From: Desulfomicrobium sp. ZS1
Lineage (GTDB): Bacteria; Desulfobacterota; Desulfovibrionia; Desulfovibrionales; Desulfomicrobiaceae
NCBI RefSeq assembly: GCF_024204645.1
Contig: NZ_CP100351.1
Span: 806,001-870,000 of the forward strand
Length of the DNA stretch: 64,000 nt
Direction of reading: 5' to 3'
Of the stretch, positions 6,895 through 14,169 are shown one piece after another. A program made the translations under genes and the position numbers. Each line of letters begins with the position of its first letter. The stretch's first letter is position 1. The notes below the pieces were generated by a model that saw only the letters and a list, made by a program, of their open reading frames with translations, was not told the DNA's origin and did not search any database.

Positions 6895-8988
6895 TTACTC
6901 CGCTCCGATTTGAACGAACGTTGTCTCTTTGTCCGTGACGTTGAAGGGAATCAGACGGACCAATACCCCATCGTTCTCGCGCTTGGGTTCAAGCAGCAGG
7001 TAGTTTCCAGGTTGCATGGCGCAAGCCAGGACGCCCCGGGTTTCCTTCCAGGGCAGGTCGTCGAGGGCGCGCAAATGCCCGTCTTCGATTCTGGTCACGC
7101 CAAAATCCTTCAAGGGCTGCACGTCTTTGCCGCCCGTGACGTGCAGAGCTCCGCTGGCCGGTGTGGCGGTCTGCATTTCCCAGAATTGCCAATCCGCTCC
7201 GTCAAAATACTCCACGCCGCCAAAATCGACTTCGCAGCGGGCCGGAACGCCCATGGTGCGCAAGGCTGCCGTGCCTAGTACCGCTTTGTCCGAATTCGAG
7301 GAGCAGAAACCGCCCTGAAGAGTCTGCAGCGGGGTCAGGGGCGGGCCGAAAAGGGTCTGCGGCAGAATGGGCAGGCTGTTGATGCGTTTCCGAATGGCTT
7401 GCATTTTCCTTTCAAGAGGCAGGGGAATGGATTTTTTCAGCCATGGATGCAGCTGAGCGCGCCAGGACGACCAGGGTTCAAGGTGCAGGCGAGGTGAAAG
7501 CACGTAGCGAGTGAAGGTCTCGTCGTCATAGGAAAGCCCGGCCTTAGCCGAAGCCTCTCTGGCGTCGACCGCAAGTTCGATGTCGCGGGGCAGGGTTTCG
7601 GGGTCGGCCTGCAGCAGGTCCTTGTCGTCGAGGCCGGTCATCAGGGGCACAATCCAGGGTGTGGCCGGGCCTTGCGGCTGCCGCAGCAGGCGCAGCCAAA
7701 GTGGCGCGCGCTCACCCGCCAGGGGCAGGCTTTCCTGCAGTGCGGCCGGCAGATCGCGCAGGAATGGTTCCCAGCGCCGGGCCCGCTCTTTTCGCAGCCG
7801 CGTGAGCTTCGGGCTGATGGTGGCTTCGAAGGCGTTTTGGGCTGAGCCCGGATGTGAAAACCTGACGGATTCGGGCAGCGCGCGGGGAGCGCCTGCCTGG
7901 AGGCGGACGCGCGTTTCGTCCATGTCCCGGGTGTCGAGCAGGGCCCAGGCGAGTCCGTCTTCAGCGGCGCATGACGCGAAAAAGATGCCGGGGCCGAGGA
8001 TGACCCTGGCCATGCCGTCGTCGTTGGTGACGGCCTTGGTCACGGGCCTGAATCCGCCCAGGGAATAGACGCTGAAGAAGACGTCTCGCCCAGGGGCTGG
8101 CTGATCATCCGCCAGACGCACGCTGACCTGAACCGTCGTGCCCCGTGTATAGGCGGCCGTATTGTCGAGCAGGGCGAAGCCGGTGCCGGTACGGTAGACT
8201 GACGGGTCCTCAGGTTGGCCAAAGGCATAGGCCACGACCTTGGCCATGCGCGGGGTTTGGGCCGCGAACCAGGTCTGGTTCAGAACGGAAAATTCGGTTC
8301 CGCTTTCCAGGAATTTCCAGCCGTCTTTTGTCCAAGCTTCGACCCAGGCATGGTTGCCGTCGGCGTGCTGCCACCACGGAACCATGGCTTGGCGCACGGG
8401 CAAGCCCACGGCACGGGCTGCCGCCAGGAAGAGGATATTGGTCTCCTCGCAGCGTCCGTATCCGGCGTCGAGGATGGACATGACGCCCAGATCGCGGCGG
8501 GAGGTGGAACGATATTCAGCCCTTTGCGCACACCACTCGCCCACGAGCGCAAGCGCCTCTTCCATGCTCCCGGCTGTGGCGCACAGTGGCGCCAGTTTTC
8601 TGAAAAGCATGGCCCGGTGGGGCTCGAAAGGCTCCTGGCTGGCGCGATGGGGAAGGACGTAGTGCAGAAATGTGTCCCAAGGCACGGTTTCGCCCCAGGG
8701 CATGGATGCACGCGCCAGGAAGGCGTAGTCCAGATTTTCGCTTAACTCGGCGGCGCTCATGGACAATCTGTCGGCCGGTGGCAGATTGTCGAGCAGAAAC
8801 CGGGCGGCGAGGGATTTGTCTGTGTCCCCGGAATACATCTGCTCGAAAGCGTTTAACTCACCGGCGTTGGGATTGGCGGCGTCGGTGATGGAGAGCTGCG
8901 TGGTGATGCCCGGACCCGGCTGCCGCCCCGCGCAGCCCCCAAGCACAACGATGAGAACGAGGAGTGTGATCAGTCGATTGGTATTCAT
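6895..8988 (-). CDS. Transglutaminase-domain lipoprotein
   Basis: 697 residues. The N-terminus is a lipoprotein signal (LIVVLGGC, Cys19), so it should be anchored to a membrane facing the periplasm. A transglutaminase-like core lies near 165-230: GRCEETNILF supplies the catalytic Cys and GNHAWVEAW the His. A Cys-containing segment near residue 580 (GGFCSSNSDKAVLG) followed by aromatic-rich sequence may be a second, degenerate copy. Such proteins act as proteases or in cell-wall or protein processing; the substrate is unknown. The promoter should lie in 8989-9087. Confidence 0.8.
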   Translation of the reverse strand: MNTNRLITLLVLIVVLGGCAGRQPGPGITTQLSITDAANPNAGELNAFEQMYSGDTDKSLAARFLLDNLPPADRLSMSAAELSENLDYAFLARASMPWGETVPWDTFLHYVLPHRASQEPFEPHRAMLFRKLAPLCATAGSMEEALALVGEWCAQRAEYRSTSRRDLGVMSILDAGYGRCEETNILFLAAARAVGLPVRQAMVPWWQHADGNHAWVEAWTKDGWKFLESGTEFSVLNQTWFAAQTPRMAKVVAYAFGQPEDPSVYRTGTGFALLDNTAAYTRGTTVQVSVRLADDQPAPGRDVFFSVYSLGGFRPVTKAVTNDDGMARVILGPGIFFASCAAEDGLAWALLDTRDMDETRVRLQAGAPRALPESVRFSHPGSAQNAFEATISPKLTRLRKERARRWEPFLRDLPAALQESLPLAGERAPLWLRLLRQPQGPATPWIVPLMTGLDDKDLLQADPETLPRDIELAVDAREASAKAGLSYDDETFTRYVLSPRLHLEPWSSWRAQLHPWLKKSIPLPLERKMQAIRKRINSLPILPQTLFGPPLTPLQTLQGGFCSSNSDKAVLGTAALRTMGVPARCEVDFGGVEYFDGADWQFWEMQTATPASGALHVTGGKDVQPLKDFGVTRIEDGHLRALDDLPWKETRGVLACAMQPGNYLLLEPKRENDGVLVRLIPFNVTDKETTFVQIGAE

Positions 8989-9122: not shown

Positions 9123-11309
9123 TCAGGGTTCGGTGCGCCCTAGTGGCAGCTTGGTGAATCGTCCGCCGCTTAAGATCGGATCGTCCTTGTAGCCGAGGGC
9201 CTTGAAGTCGATGTAGTCGGTAACGCCGACCAGATCAGCCACGTCGCGGCCCTGGGAAACCATCTTGGCGAAGTCGGTGCCGGAGGCGGTCAGCTTCTTG
9301 AAGTCCACGTCCCGCCGGTCCTGATGGCAGCGGTCGCAGGTTTTTTCACCTTTGAGGCTCTCGTGGCACTGCACGCAAGACAGGGCCATATCCTTAGGCA
9401 TGACCTCATGCTTGATGCCCCAGTACATGTTGGTGCGCACCCATGTGTATTCCCCGCTGTAGGGCAAGCCGGCCGCCTTCATGCCGTCGACGAAGGCCTT
9501 CTGCCAGTCGAGGTTTTTCCAGTAGGCGGTGGTGTCGTCCGGTGACGTGGGATAGAGGTGGGGCACAAGCAGGTAGTTGTGCTTGGCGTCGGCGGGCTGG
9601 ATTCCGTCCATGAGCTTGAAGGGGAAGATCTTGGAGGAGGGGTCTTTCATGCTGCCGACCGGTGCCGTGATATTGGTCACGGGCAGGTTGCGGCGTTCTT
9701 CGGCGGACGGGTTTTCGCCGGGGGCAAAACCCGTGGCGTCGGGGGCGATGGCGTCGCCCAGAAGCAGGCGCTCCATGTAGCCGTTGTACCAAGCGTAGAC
9801 GGGCTTTTTGGATTCTTTCCACTCGAATTCGCCCTTCATCCAATTGTAGTCTTCTTCACCGGAGGCGTCCTTTACCGGCTGCCTGGATTTGTCGCCGGCC
9901 AGAGACCAGTCCCACCAGGTCTTGGTTGGCCTGCATTTGGAATAGATCGGCGTATGACAGGTATTGCAGGCCACGGTGTCGGTATGCTTGTTGAGATGGA
10001 AATCAAGCATGCTGTCCCCGAAGTGGGGTTTGTTTGTATGGCAGTCTTCGCAGGTGCGCGAACCCTCGGCCACGGGCAGGGATGTGCTGCGGCCCCTGAT
10101 CTTGTGGTTTACGGCCGCGTGGCAATCGGTACAGGCGAAGTCGTGTCCACCCATGTGCACGTCGCAGTTGCGTTCCGGGTAGCGCAGCACTTCGGACATG
10201 TCCGCGTGCTTGACGCCGTCCGCTCCGCCGCCTTGGAAATGACAGCTTCCGCAGGTGTTGCGGTTGGTATTGCCGACGTTTTCAGCCACGAACTTGAGGT
10301 CCACCTCGGGAGCGGGCATACCTGCCGCCGGCGGGGCCTTGTGGTAGCTGTCCGTCGTGTCGTGGCAGACCAGACAGTCGACCCTGGTCATGTCCGTGAA
10401 GTCGAAGGTCTCGTCCTTCCATCCGTAGCCCGCGTGGCACGAGGTGCAGCGAGGCCAGTTGGAGGGCAGGGCGATGCAGAAGTTGTTCATCGTGTCGGTG
10501 GCCTTGCCGCTCATGACTTTTTTCTGGCGTTCGACGGTATAGGGAGAAGGGCCTTTCCAGAGCCAGTGTGCGCTCTTGATCATGTCTTCCCCGGCTTTTT
10601 GATGGCAACGCAGACATTCCTGCGTGACCTGGATCGGGGTCGGATCGGCGGGGAGTTTCACCAGGTCCTTGTGGTCGGGCACGCGTTTGGCATGGCAGCC
10701 GACACAGTCGATGGGTCCTTTGTTCATTTCTTCGTGGCAGCCCATGCACTGCTGATGATACGCGGCCTTGAGGCCGATGCGTTCCGGGTGCGCGGGGTTG
10801 AAGGCCTCCTGATGGCAGGTGCGGCAGGCCACGGTTTCGGATAGCCGGTCGATCCCGGCGTCGGCTCCTTCGGGGCTGGCGTGATGGCACAGGGCGCAGT
10901 CGCCGCCCAGGCTGGCCGCGTGTTTGGAGTGCATGAAGCGGGCTGGCCCGTACAGGTTTTCAAAGGTGTTGACCAGAGGGCTGTCCAGAATCATGAGTGA
11001 ATACTTGATGTCGGCCACGCCCAGGCCCAGGTTCTTGAATCTGATCTGGCGCAGCTTGGGGTCCTCGCTTTTGACCTTGGCCACGAATTCGCGCGGGGTT
11101 TTGGCACGCGCCATGGCGGCGGCATGGTCAGGCGCTTCCCATCCTGCCGGTTTGGGATTGAGCGATGTGCGGATTTTTTGGACCGGGCCGATGGGTTTGG
11201 ATTGCTCCGGCGCGGTGGTGGCCGCGTGAGGCGCCAACAGCGCCACCGCCAGGATGATCGCCGCGCACAGCGTGGCCGGGATGAGTCGTGCTCGTCTGGA
11301 TGTCTTCAT
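9123..11309 (-). CDS. 13-haem cytochrome c: c3-like domain fused to an octahaem tetrathionate reductase-like domain
   Basis: 728 residues with a signal peptide (MKTSRRARLIPATLC, then a hydrophobic stretch to about 30), hence periplasmic. Thirteen CxxCH haem sites are visible, starting at residues 138, 162, 188, 202, 232, 288, 312, 353, 393, 420, 448, 645 and 658. The first four are clustered like class III cytochrome c3. The next eight, with CTSCHAGYGW, CLVCHD, CGSCHFQGGG, a VKHAD segment and CNTCHTPIYSK, follow the octahaem tetrathionate reductase pattern; the last is extra. It overlaps the NrfD-like gene upstream by 4 bases (ATGA). In vivo substrate is unknown: tetrathionate, nitrite or another sulfur/nitrogen oxide are all possible. 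Confidence 0.9.
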   Translation of the reverse strand: MKTSRRARLIPATLCAAIILAVALLAPHAATTAPEQSKPIGPVQKIRTSLNPKPAGWEAPDHAAAMARAKTPREFVAKVKSEDPKLRQIRFKNLGLGVADIKYSLMILDSPLVNTFENLYGPARFMHSKHAASLGGDCALCHHASPEGADAGIDRLSETVACRTCHQEAFNPAHPERIGLKAAYHQQCMGCHEEMNKGPIDCVGCHAKRVPDHKDLVKLPADPTPIQVTQECLRCHQKAGEDMIKSAHWLWKGPSPYTVERQKKVMSGKATDTMNNFCIALPSNWPRCTSCHAGYGWKDETFDFTDMTRVDCLVCHDTTDSYHKAPPAAGMPAPEVDLKFVAENVGNTNRNTCGSCHFQGGGADGVKHADMSEVLRYPERNCDVHMGGHDFACTDCHAAVNHKIRGRSTSLPVAEGSRTCEDCHTNKPHFGDSMLDFHLNKHTDTVACNTCHTPIYSKCRPTKTWWDWSLAGDKSRQPVKDASGEEDYNWMKGEFEWKESKKPVYAWYNGYMERLLLGDAIAPDATGFAPGENPSAEERRNLPVTNITAPVGSMKDPSSKIFPFKLMDGIQPADAKHNYLLVPHLYPTSPDDTTAYWKNLDWQKAFVDGMKAAGLPYSGEYTWVRTNMYWGIKHEVMPKDMALSCVQCHESLKGEKTCDRCHQDRRDVDFKKLTASGTDFAKMVSQGRDVADLVGVTDYIDFKALGYKDDPILSGGRFTKLPLGRTEP

Positions 11310-12469
11310 CGCGTCATCTCCTCCTGCTTGGGTGCGGACAGGACCGGCGCAAAGGTTACGAGCGTCCGGTACAGGAACATGATCGCCGCCACTGCTCCGG
11401 CCGTGACGAGAATTTCGCCGATGGACGGAAAATACGGGATTGTCCCGGTTTGCGGAGTGTAGGCTACCAGAAAGACGTTGACCCGGTTCAGGAGCACGCC
11501 GCCGACAATGAGCAGGGCGGCGAAGAAGAGTCTGCGCCGGGACCGCCGTACCGCCGGGAAGAGCAGCAAGGTCCAGGGCAGAATCACGCCCAGGCCCACT
11601 TCGGCCAGGAAACTGTTGGCCGCGAGTGTTCCGTCAAAGGCCAGGGACAGAACCCCTCGATGCAGAAGGTCCCACAGCTTGAGCGCCATGTACAGGCCCA
11701 GGGTAATGATGGTGAATCGTGACAGCGGGGCCAGGACCTCCATTTCACTGGACAGACCGAGGGACGTGGTGGCTAGGTTGGTCTCGACGATGACCATGGG
11801 ATACCCCACCGAGAAGGCCGAGAGCAGGAAGAGCAGGGGCAGAAATGGCGTGTACCAGAGCGCGTGGACCTTGGTCGGTGCGATGACCATGAGCGTGCCC
11901 AGGCTTGACTGGTGCATGCAGGACAGGACCACGCCGAGCACGATGAAGATCCACATAAAGGATGAGAGCTTGCGGTTGAACCAGCCCAGAACCTTTATTT
12001 TCGTGCCCCATTTTTCGGCCAGGATCGGGATCATCTCGATCCAGAGCACGCTCAAGTAGATCATGACGCACATGGCCACTTCAAAGAGGGCTGAATTGTA
12101 ATTGTGGAAGAACACGGGTTTCCAGATGGCCCAGGAGCGCCCGATATCGACAAAGACGGCGAAGGCGACAAAGGTGTAGCCCAGGGCGGCGGTCAAAAGC
12201 GCGGGTCTGGTCACGGCCTCGTAGGCGTGGCGGCCGAAGATGTGGGCCAGGGCGGCGGTGGTGAACCCTCCGGCGGCCAGGGCCACGCCGGATGCCACGT
12301 CCATACCGATCCAGATGCCCCATGGGTTGGTGTTGGAAAGGTTGGTGGCGTAGCCCAGGCCGAAGATGAAGCGGACCATGAGGGCCGCGCCTCCGGCCAG
12401 CATGAATGCGAGCAGGACCAGGACGCCCGGGGACCAGAAGGGACGGTCGATGGGTCGGGGATGGTGCAT
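11306..12469 (-). CDS. NrfD/PsrC/HybB-type quinone-interacting membrane subunit
   Basis: 387 residues, about 10 hydrophobic helices and no cofactor motifs. Starts near FWSPGVLVLLAFMLAGGAAL and contains NPWGIWIGMDVASGVALAAGG, typical of the NrfD/HybB family. These proteins bind (mena)quinol and pass electrons to a partner iron-sulfur subunit. It is 4 bases after the ferredoxin gene and overlaps the cytochrome gene, so the three products should form one membrane complex. Its arrangement with a HybA-type subunit matches the hydrogenase-2 module, but the catalytic partner here is a cytochrome. Confidence 0.9.
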   Translation of the reverse strand: MHHPRPIDRPFWSPGVLVLLAFMLAGGAALMVRFIFGLGYATNLSNTNPWGIWIGMDVASGVALAAGGFTTAALAHIFGRHAYEAVTRPALLTAALGYTFVAFAVFVDIGRSWAIWKPVFFHNYNSALFEVAMCVMIYLSVLWIEMIPILAEKWGTKIKVLGWFNRKLSSFMWIFIVLGVVLSCMHQSSLGTLMVIAPTKVHALWYTPFLPLLFLLSAFSVGYPMVIVETNLATTSLGLSSEMEVLAPLSRFTIITLGLYMALKLWDLLHRGVLSLAFDGTLAANSFLAEVGLGVILPWTLLLFPAVRRSRRRLFFAALLIVGGVLLNRVNVFLVAYTPQTGTIPYFPSIGEILVTAGAVAAIMFLYRTLVTFAPVLSAPKQEEMTR

Positions 12470-12473
12470 GAGC

Positions 12474-13370
12474 TTACTCCTTGTCCGGGTGTGATTTTTC
12501 GCCCGAGAGCATTTTCATGGTTAGGGCCAGCCCGCCGAAGAGCAGGGCCGGGGACCACAGGTAGCTGAACAGGGCATGCTGGATGGTTTCGCTGCGTCTG
12601 GGCAGGGGCTCAAGCGGCACGCGGGGGAATCCGAGTTTGGCGAAGGGGGTTCCTGCGACGTACAGCCAGCTTGTGCCACCGCCCTCGTGTTCGCCGTAGA
12701 TGTGGTTCTCGTAGCGGCTGGGGTCGTTATCGATGCGCTCCCGCGCCAGTTTCAGAAGCGTCGAACGCTTGCCGAAGGTGATGGCCTCGGTAGGACAGAT
12801 GGAGGCGCAGCCCGGCATCTTGCCGTCTTCGAGCCGCTCCAGGCAGAAGGTGCATTTGCGTACTTGCGGGGTGAGCGGGTTATGGAAATCGTAGGCCGGA
12901 ATTTCGAACGGGCAGGCGACCATGCAGTAGCGGCAGCCGATGCATTTGCCGACGTCGTAATGCACCGTTCCGTTTTCCTTCTTGGAGAGAGCGCCGGTGA
13001 CGCAGGCCGAGACGCAGGCCGGGTCCTGGCAATGCATGCACTGGATTTTGACGAAACTGGGTACCAGTTCGCCGCGTTCAGTGAGCTGGCCCGGATAATA
13101 GCGGTTCACGACCGTGTATGAGCCGGCCGTGGGGCGGCGTTTGGTGTCGAGCACGCGCATGTCCTCGAAGGATGTTTCGGGTTCGGGCAGCTTGTTGACC
13201 TGATTGCAGGCCAGTTCGCATTTGCGGCAGCCGATGCAGCGGGTCACGTCGACCAGACAGCCAAGCGGGTCTTCCGGTGCCTTGGATTCCCAAGCGTGGG
13301 CTGGCGTCGCAGCCATGGCGGCGATGCCCAGGCCGGCTGTTTTGAGGAATTGCCGACGAGCGATACTCAT
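12474..13370 (-). CDS. Tat-exported 4x[4Fe-4S] ferredoxin, HybA-like, with membrane anchor
   Basis: 298 residues. N-terminal twin-arginine signal [12 protein letters not shown]; cysteine groups for four [4Fe-4S] clusters: [31 protein letters not shown] and CTFCLERL...GCASICP. A C-terminal hydrophobic helix ([11 protein letters not shown]) suggests anchoring, as in HybA. Start chosen at ATG 13370 after AAGGAGGAGGT. First gene of the operon; it should carry electrons between the NrfD-like quinone subunit and the 13-haem cytochrome on the outer face of the inner membrane. Confidence 0.92.
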
Positions 13371-13431: not shown

Positions 13432-13480
13432 AGAAAAACCTATACCCAAGGTTTGGTCTGGGCATCTTGATGGTCGTCAA
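13432..13480 (-). promoter_or_regulatory. Candidate class II FNR-type promoter for the cytochrome operon
   Basis: The minus strand has a -10-like TATAGG at 13444-13439, predicting transcription start near 13432. The FNR-type box at 13467-13480 is centred at 13473.5, 41.5 bases upstream of that start, the standard distance for FNR/Crp class II activation. Start point is inferred from the hexamer only. Confidence 0.5.
13467..13480. promoter_or_regulatory. FNR-type operator TTGATggtcGTCAA
   Basis: Matches the FNR consensus TTGAT-N4-ATCAA at 9 of 10 positions. It lies 18 bases before the GTG of the Crp/Fnr gene, where binding would block or limit that gene's own transcription, and upstream of the divergent ferredoxin gene. 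Confidence 0.65.
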
Positions 13481-13497: not shown

Positions 13498-14169
13498 GTG
13501 GAAATAATGCATGCGTTGGAAGAAATGAGCCTGCTGAAGGGTCTCACCTCTCAGGAGTTGACCGGACTGGCGCGGGGCGCGGTCTGGAAAACTTTCGCTT
13601 CCGGTGAATTCGTCTTTCATCAGGGCGATGAGGCCAGATATTTTTATGTGCTTTATTCGGGCATGCTCAAGCTTTTTCGCAGCACGGTCGATGGTCGGGA
13701 CCAAACCGTTTATCTGGTGGAAGAGGGCGATCCGTTTTGTCTGTGCTCCTTGTACGGGGCCGAGGTCCTGCCGGTCAGCGCGCTGACCATGACCGCCTGC
13801 GAGGTGGTCGCTTTTTCGAGGGAATGCATGGAGGAACAGTTACGCCGCTCTTCGCTGGTACTGCTCAACATCGTGCGGGTGCTCAACACCCGGCTCATGC
13901 ATTCGTATCAGATGATCGAGGACCTGGCCCTGCGCAGCATCCACCAGCGCGTGGCCTCCTTTCTACTGCATGCGGCCCGGGTCCGGGGCGGGGATTCGCT
14001 CCGCGTGACCCTTTCGGTCTCCCGGCAGGAGGTAGCCAAGATTCTGGGCACCACGCCGGAGACCATCTCCCGCGTCCTGGCGCGGCTGTGCCAGGACGGG
14101 CTGATCGAGGCCCGGGGACGCGAGATCGTCCTGCTCGATTACCAGGGCATGGTGGACGTGGCGGGGTAA
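13498..14169 (+). CDS. Crp/Fnr family transcriptional regulator
   Basis: 223 residues. cNMP-binding-type beta roll at about 15-115 (SGEFVFHQGDEARYFYVLYSG), dimer helix, then winged helix with VSRQEVAKILGTTPETISRVL. The recognition helix carries E-x-x-S-R, the FNR residues that read TTGA, and a TTGAT box lies in the shared promoter. It has no N-terminal cysteine cluster for an FNR-type [4Fe-4S], so the signal is probably haem- or small-molecule-borne; a CLC motif sits near residue 80. GTG start at 13498 after GGAGAGAG. Divergent from the cytochrome operon, its likely target. Confidence 0.88.
   Translation: MEIMHALEEMSLLKGLTSQELTGLARGAVWKTFASGEFVFHQGDEARYFYVLYSGMLKLFRSTVDGRDQTVYLVEEGDPFCLCSLYGAEVLPVSALTMTACEVVAFSRECMEEQLRRSSLVLLNIVRVLNTRLMHSYQMIEDLALRSIHQRVASFLLHAARVRGGDSLRVTLSVSRQEVAKILGTTPETISRVLARLCQDGLIEARGREIVLLDYQGMVDVAG

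Follow-up and report, generated by a model that had tools for sequence, protein, structure and literature searches.

What does a cytochrome do that joins a class III cytochrome c3 domain to an octahaem tetrathionate reductase (OTR) and is encoded beside a ferredoxin and a membrane subunit of respiratory type? The question is raised by a gene, here called c3-OTR, on the reverse strand of a stretch of 64,000 nucleotides from Desulfomicrobium sp. ZS1 (contig NZ_CP100351.1, positions 806,001 to 870,000), the whole of which is referred to below as the window. Our answer, to which we give a probability of about 0.45, is that it may belong to a menaquinol-driven periplasmic reductase of S-S bonds with residue 278 as the nucleophile, a cysteine in the window protein and apparently selenocysteine (Sec) in many of its sisters. 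We prefer this reading because of an analogy with the haem enzyme TsdA and because the repeated exchange of Cys and Sec fits a nucleophilic or redox-active residue. Loci of relatives are cited by L numbers.

A thirteen-haem cytochrome and its family

The c3-OTR frame carries 13 CxxCH motifs (at residues 138, 162, 188, 202, 232, 288, 312, 353, 393, 420, 448, 645 and 658) and is the sole reading frame of the window with at least two, while 2000 composition shuffles of its residues gave a mean of 0.057 and a maximum of 2. The motifs fall into the 4 + 8 + 1 arrangement that a sequence-only reading of this DNA had proposed, with four c3 haems (138-206), seven consecutive OTR haems (232-452), an eighth OTR haem at 645 that is separated from the seventh by about 190 residues free of haem motifs, and an extra haem close behind it at 658.

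That reading had also likened the first four haems to class III cytochrome c3 and the next eight to OTR, and both likenesses were borne out. The TmcA c3 model matched residues 122-206 with 66.3 bits (model positions 43-124/125; below the equivalog cut-off of 114), and in the alignment used for residue conservation, which comprised 28 c3-OTRs and 18 plain OTRs (46 rows), all four distal His and the four CxxCH motifs of this domain were kept in 28/28 c3-OTRs. The OTR family model TIGR04315 matched residues 224-651 with 483.9 bits against a curated cut-off of 375, and the best solved relative by sequence was the Shewanella OTR 1sp3 (E 3.2e-109). A structure of the protein fold only, haem-free, was predicted with AlphaFold2 from 46 sequences (mean predicted local distance difference test score, pLDDT, 79.4; predicted template modelling score, pTM, 0.82). 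Superposition on OTR had been named as the point on which the earlier claim would turn, and the predicted fold superposes on 1sp3 with Z 36.3 and 2.2 Å over 420/436 residues; the eight CxxCH motifs of the domain align with those of 1sp3. Residues 83-210 of the model matched c3, NhcA and HmcA chains with Z 5.3-8.4, a score that is modest alone and with which the sequence matches agree. Lys367 aligns with 1sp3 chain residue 153, which we take, residue number included, to bind the active-site haem as its axial ligand, and Asp364 is kept in 35/46 aligned sequences. Lysine ligation in OTR is described in a passage of PMC12285233.

A scan of genome contigs yielded 147 relatives, and the detailed counts refer to the best 80 of these; such counts are biased towards the window, because they are based on the nearest 80. 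This set holds 34 loci of c3-OTR type and 46 plain OTRs, and with further genomes and the window included there are 48 c3-OTR genes in all. The c3-OTR fusion is thus a real, conserved family. On a tree of 121 rows, which included 41 of the 48 c3-OTRs and was obtained by a quick search with support from the approximate likelihood ratio test SH-aLRT and no bootstrap, the 41 form one clade. The tree requires one change of architecture when L020, the contig of which starts inside the gene, is counted as a c3-OTR, and two when it is taken as a plain OTR. An even draw that comprised 395 genomes of the phylum gave 77 matches, 14 of c3 type and 63 plain OTRs.

The genome of the window also encodes a second, plain OTR (L002, G000:C1:1504071-1505339) with 8 haems and a C-terminal hydrophobic helix, which has a cytochrome b561-type gene alongside and is 46% identical to the OTR part of the window protein.

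Cysteine and selenocysteine at column 278

Of the 34 c3-OTR loci among the best 80 relatives, 30 have their frame broken by a TGA exactly at the column of Cys278. Over the 48 c3-OTR genes this column reads TGA in 30, Cys in 17, the window gene among them, and Thr in one; with Sec counted as Cys, it is kept in 46/46 aligned OTRs. All 30 TGA c3-OTRs carry a hairpin, GCAACGAG(G/T)CTCGTTGC, which starts 13 bases past the TGA and resembles a bacterial selenocysteine insertion sequence (bSECIS). The codon is invariant at 6/6 hairpin columns as against 0/193 of the other conserved degenerate columns, counted on 28 TGA c3-OTRs with L037 and L038, which have broken frames, set aside. With the TGA read through, 13 haem motifs are present in all c3-OTRs save truncated or frame-broken genes.

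The same association extends to plain OTRs. Among 136 genes read at this column (L064, L152 and L153 stand outside the count), no two of which have identical surrounding DNA, 44 have TGA and every one of these has one of two unrelated hairpins, while neither hairpin is present in the 92 genes with Cys (91) or Thr (1). L038 is a 45th TGA gene and has the hairpin as well, so that the association holds in 45/45. The second hairpin, with the core GGTGCAG(G/T)TGCACC, occurs in 13 plain OTRs and the first in 2 (the plain OTRs with TGA being L107, L111, L112, L117, L118, L121, L123, L125, L128, L130-L132 and L149-L151), and the two kinds suggest separate origins of Sec use. In the even draw, 30/63 plain OTRs had one TGA, and its column was verified in 15 of these. 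On the tree the plain Sec OTRs L149-L151 are sister to the c3-OTRs, and no HybA or NrfD match was found near them in the 8-11 kb spanned by each.

RNA folding energy did not separate Sec from Cys genes (means of -13.0 kcal/mol for 30 Sec and -15.3 for 5 Cys c3-OTRs, and -13.8 for 46 plain OTRs). As folding energy alone is uninformative, the evidence for Sec consists of the fixed hairpin and the frozen codons, from which we infer that Sec is inserted at this column in the TGA relatives. A tRNA-Sec was counted from 65 bits upwards, because weaker matches occurred in all 14 control genomes and in five of these exceeded the family cut-off; on this threshold it is present in 22/30 TGA genomes and, among the best 80 relatives, in 4/4 genomes of the other Cys c3-OTRs. 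The window gene has neither TGA nor hairpin and does not count as a bacterial selenoprotein gene. Its own genome encodes tRNA-Sec (86.3 bits), and therefore Cys is kept in the window although Sec could be made.

The window gene lies in a five-member Cys clade adjacent to a 25-member clade in which all members except L006 have Sec (support 95 on the quick tree). At least six changes between Cys and Sec are needed on the tree, and at least two among the c3 rows alone, gains and losses being counted alike, as is expected for a residue with selected reactivity. A Sec that is confined to one column and repeatedly switched with Cys is typical of catalytic residues, and the switch probably marks the residue that does the chemistry.

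One plain OTR, L083, has TGA in place of the first Cys of a CxxCH motif in a genome with no tRNA-Sec over the cut-off, and either an error or a disrupted gene is the probable cause.

The membrane module and its possible reaction

The neighbours of c3-OTR are, as had been claimed, a HybA-type ferredoxin and a HybB/NrfD-type subunit (Table 1). On the reverse strand the ferredoxin gene comes first and is followed after 4 bases by the NrfD-type gene, which c3-OTR overlaps by 4 bases. The ferredoxin has 17 Cys, 16 of them in four cluster motifs, and exceeds the HybA model cut-off (267.4 vs 263 bits). The sequence-only reading had found no hydrogenase alongside. E. coli HybC and HybO had no match at E 1e-3 among the 574 frames of at least 60 residues in the whole window, and therefore no Hyb-type hydrogenase is encoded there; a hydrogenase module was rejected on this ground and on that of the missed HybB cut-off (315.2 vs 450 bits).

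Clustering of open reading frames around 47 loci returned HybA, NrfD, c3-OTR and a sigma-54 activator (28 loci) as recurrent, and the other clusters were smaller or overlapped these genes, with several not identified. A HybA-type gene is found at 40/46 c3-OTR loci (window and L158 excluded), and five of the six loci without it begin at a contig end. In five genomes (L134, L135, L136, L138 and L158) the NrfD subunit and c3-OTR form one frame of 1080-1106 residues; since both then lie on one polypeptide, they belong to one complex, and these fusions support the membrane-bound, quinone-linked respiratory complex that the sequence-only reading had suggested. The columns of HybB R89, Y99, E148 and H184 are kept in the window subunit and in 43/43 aligned membrane subunits; exchange of these residues in E. 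coli HybB lowers H2 oxidation according to a passage of PMC8076601. Four of the five fused frames have 12 CxxCH motifs and one CxxxCH (CGMNCH).

In the mechanism that we propose, the products of the three genes would form a single membrane-bound respiratory complex in which the NrfD/HybB-type subunit oxidises menaquinol. The electrons would pass through the four Fe-S clusters of the HybA-type subunit and the four c3 haems into the OTR haem chain and end at OTR haem 2, for which CxxCH 288-292 is the binding motif and Lys367 the ligand; haem 2 is presumably the active-site haem, and we take Cys64 of 1sp3 to lie beside it. Cys278, or Sec in the relatives, might then attack the S-S bond of tetrathionate, thiosulfate or polysulfide, and part of the substrate would be kept as a Cys/Sec adduct until it is reduced by the haem. 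Electron direction, substrate class and the role as nucleophile are inferred, and the Cys form of the window is likewise assumed to react as the Sec forms would. Passages of PMC4911364 and PMC5146829 report that Shewanella OTR reduces tetrathionate, and one in PMC5146829 reports a Cys S-thiosulfonate intermediate for TsdA. A PhsA/PsrA-like molybdoenzyme adjoins the fused form in 4/5 genomes (L134, L135, L136 and L138; the L138 enzyme scores 560 bits, where the PhsA model requires 694), another molybdopterin enzyme lies near L158, and rhodanese genes lie near L134, L135 and L138. It is possible, with a probability slightly below that of the S-S reductase itself, that this is a widespread quinone-linked multihaem family in which Sec acts directly at a Lys-ligated haem active site, where selenol and haem iron would act jointly on a sulfur (or nitrogen) substrate. 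We know of no active site in nature with selenol and haem iron of this kind.

Several observations weigh against the S-S reductase. The sulfur-related neighbours are confined to the fused clade and are not seen near the window; the fused c3-OTR of L158 has Thr at the Cys/Sec column, possibly a form with changed activity; and the Sec c3-OTR of L010 truly lacks an adjoining HybA/NrfD module. None of the 14 c3-type matches in the even draw had TGA, which is likely a sampling effect. The further points of this kind concern substrate and electron direction and are weighed with the alternatives to which they belong.

The serious rival, rather unlikely in our estimate, is that the same complex acts on nitrite, hydroxylamine or NO, in respiration or detoxification, and that the part of Cys/Sec278 is to protect or tune the haem site. 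In vitro, OTR can reduce both nitrite and hydroxylamine (parts of PMC4911364 and PMC10949509), and the gene directly upstream of c3-OTR in L010 (L010:4053-5699) encodes the hydroxylamine reductase Hcp, a neighbour that is found at this one locus only. In the window, L005, L147 and L007 a CRP/FNR regulator takes the place of the sigma-54 activator, and 4/4 of these CRP-bearing loci have a TTGA-N6-TCAA site in the DNA upstream of HybA, as against 1/37 of the other HybA loci, some of which, such as L034, span little upstream DNA. The window regulator has Pro (in PETISR) at the presumed column of CRP residue 180, which we placed through a CRP motif that we assume. In HcpR, Ser or Pro replaces Arg180 of CRP, and the sites of the window clade are close to atTTGAccnnggTCAAat, the consensus of one class of HcpR sites (both from passages of PMC545781), which would suit nitrosative stress. 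However, the closest NCBIfam names for the regulator are FtrB and FixK, both below cut-off, and not HcpR, and at most other loci the regulator is instead a sigma-54 activator, divergent and within 2.5 kb at 25/40 loci with HybA (a simple pattern for a sigma-54 promoter upstream of HybA matched 2/40 loci and was not used). Moreover, other haem nitrite reductases, to our knowledge, need no catalytic Cys or Sec.

Less probable again is a reverse flow, in which menaquinone would be reduced by way of c3-OTR and HybA. The electrons would then come from a reduced periplasmic donor, either a sulfur compound or TpI c3 that has received them from hydrogenase or formate dehydrogenase. Electrons do run towards quinone in Hyd-2, Nhc and Qrc, as complexes containing HybB, NhcC and QrcD reduce quinone (PMC8076601, in part), and this is in keeping with the similarity to HmcB/HmcC and with the likeness of the c3 domain to its counterparts in NhcA and HmcA. 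Yet a pure c3:quinone reductase would have no need of the substrate-site columns of OTR, namely Cys278, Lys367 and the eight haems, which are kept.

We consider it improbable that the OTR domain is an electron conduit, or a selenite, tellurite or metal reductase, in which Cys/Sec278 serves as a redox relay or metal ligand. Many multihaem proteins are electron conduits, MccA has a copper site, and L158 does without Cys at the column; Cys382 and Cys459, a possible disulfide or metal pair, occur together in 24/28 c3-OTRs and are both lost in the four NrfD-fused members of that set. The repeated Cys/Sec switching at a single column is, on the other hand, a mark of catalytic residues. That the TGA codons are real stops, in pseudogenes or between two separate proteins, is very improbable: the Sec reading is drawn from sequence and 8/30 TGA genomes have no tRNA-Sec over the cut-off, but those eight are metagenome drafts according to their titles, the codon and its hairpin recur together in all 45 genes with codons frozen in the hairpin only, read-through restores the haem motifs, and a Sec form is annotated in GenBank (PMC13188914, in part).

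The switch of Cys and Sec on at least six occasions and the two unrelated hairpins single out the residue to mutate, and natural Cys/Sec pairs are available for comparison, the window supplying the Cys member and its close sisters the Sec members. The NrfD fusions mean that such cytochromes can belong to a quinone-reactive, possibly proton-moving complex, and bear on the use of other acceptors by sulfate reducers. Gene calling with TGA as a stop splits these genes in two.

A transglutaminase-like gene (6895-8988, reverse strand) lies downstream of the operon in the window and near it in L005 and L147 too, with no visible link to the complex.

Table 1. Features of the c3-OTR locus, in positions of the window
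Feature	Positions	Strand	Remarks
c3-OTR, periplasmic 13-haem cytochrome, 728 aa	9123-11309	-	N-terminal signal peptide read from sequence
Class III cytochrome c3 domain, residues 103-209, four haems	10683-11003	-	Distal His 127, 130, 143, 185
OTR domain, residues 210-650, eight haems	9360-10682	-	TIGR04315, 1sp3
Cys278 codon, TGC	10476-10478	-	Column of 1sp3 chain residue 64, counted on alignment
Lys367 codon	10209-10211	-	Column of 1sp3 chain residue 153; Lys in 46/46 aligned
13th haem site, residues 658-662	9324-9338	-	28/28 c3-OTRs, 0/18 plain OTRs
NrfD/HybB/HmcC-type membrane subunit, 387 aa	11306-12469	-	Family models
HybA/HmcB-type ferredoxin	12474-13370	-	Twin-arginine (Tat) motif RRQFLK; C-terminal hydrophobic stretch
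Inverted repeat TTGATGGTCGTCAA, putative operator of CRP/FNR type	13467-13480	between divergent genes	Similar sites in L005, L147, L007
CRP/FNR-family regulator, probable operon regulator	13498-14169	+	Divergent; sequence models

Comparison with known systems

Each of the components (OTR, c3, HybA and NrfD) has been described before. The sequence-only reading had held that the c3-OTR fusion is not a standard described enzyme, and this stands with one reservation. In the open-licence literature of PMC, searched mostly at the level of listings, neither this fusion nor its complex with NrfD nor the column that carries Sec or Cys was found described, but a Sec form of TIGR04315 has already been tabulated. 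It appears in a table of a 2026 review (PMC13188914, in part) as the GenBank-annotated selenoprotein WP_331457571.1, and thus shares OTR family and Sec with the relatives described here; the table entry gives no Sec motif, and the window gene differs from it in having Cys.

The nine-haem Nhc and sixteen-haem Hmc complexes resemble the window operon in their HmcB- and HmcC-like partners and in a c3-type domain, whereas the window protein has an OTR domain where those have further c3 domains. Membership in Hmc was rejected on the scores for HmcB (340.2 vs 420 bits), HmcC (250.3 vs 550) and HmcA (65.7 vs 400). The sulfite reductase MccA-MccC-MccD is likewise linked to quinol and combines an octahaem cytochrome c with subunits of Fe-S and NrfD type (PMC8076601, in part), but without the c3 domain; no MccA-named model was among the family-model matches of the window, in which no search was aimed at MccA.

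Another system of comparable plan is the Ohc complex of Desulfovibrio, a name that reportedly goes back to a comparative study of sulfate reducers from 2011. Like the window operon it combines an octahaem cytochrome with Fe-S and membrane subunits, given in a passage of PMC4641369 as the octahaem OhcA, the Fe-S protein OhcB and the haem-b protein OhcC, and the sigma-54 activator arrangement of the ohc genes described there resembles that of many c3-OTR relatives. The window operon differs in its added c3 domain and in a membrane subunit of NrfD type rather than cytochrome b, and on the latter ground membership in Ohc was rejected; the second OTR of the same genome, with its b561-type subunit, is closer to the Ohc layout.

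The cellular role of OTR itself is described as still unclear in a passage of PMC10949509, with regard to nitrite and hydroxylamine. With the Shewanella oneidensis enzyme (1sp3, TIGR04315) the window protein shares the eight CxxCH motifs, the fold and the columns of residues 64 and 153, and to these it adds a c3 domain in front, a thirteenth haem, a C-terminal extension and a membrane module.

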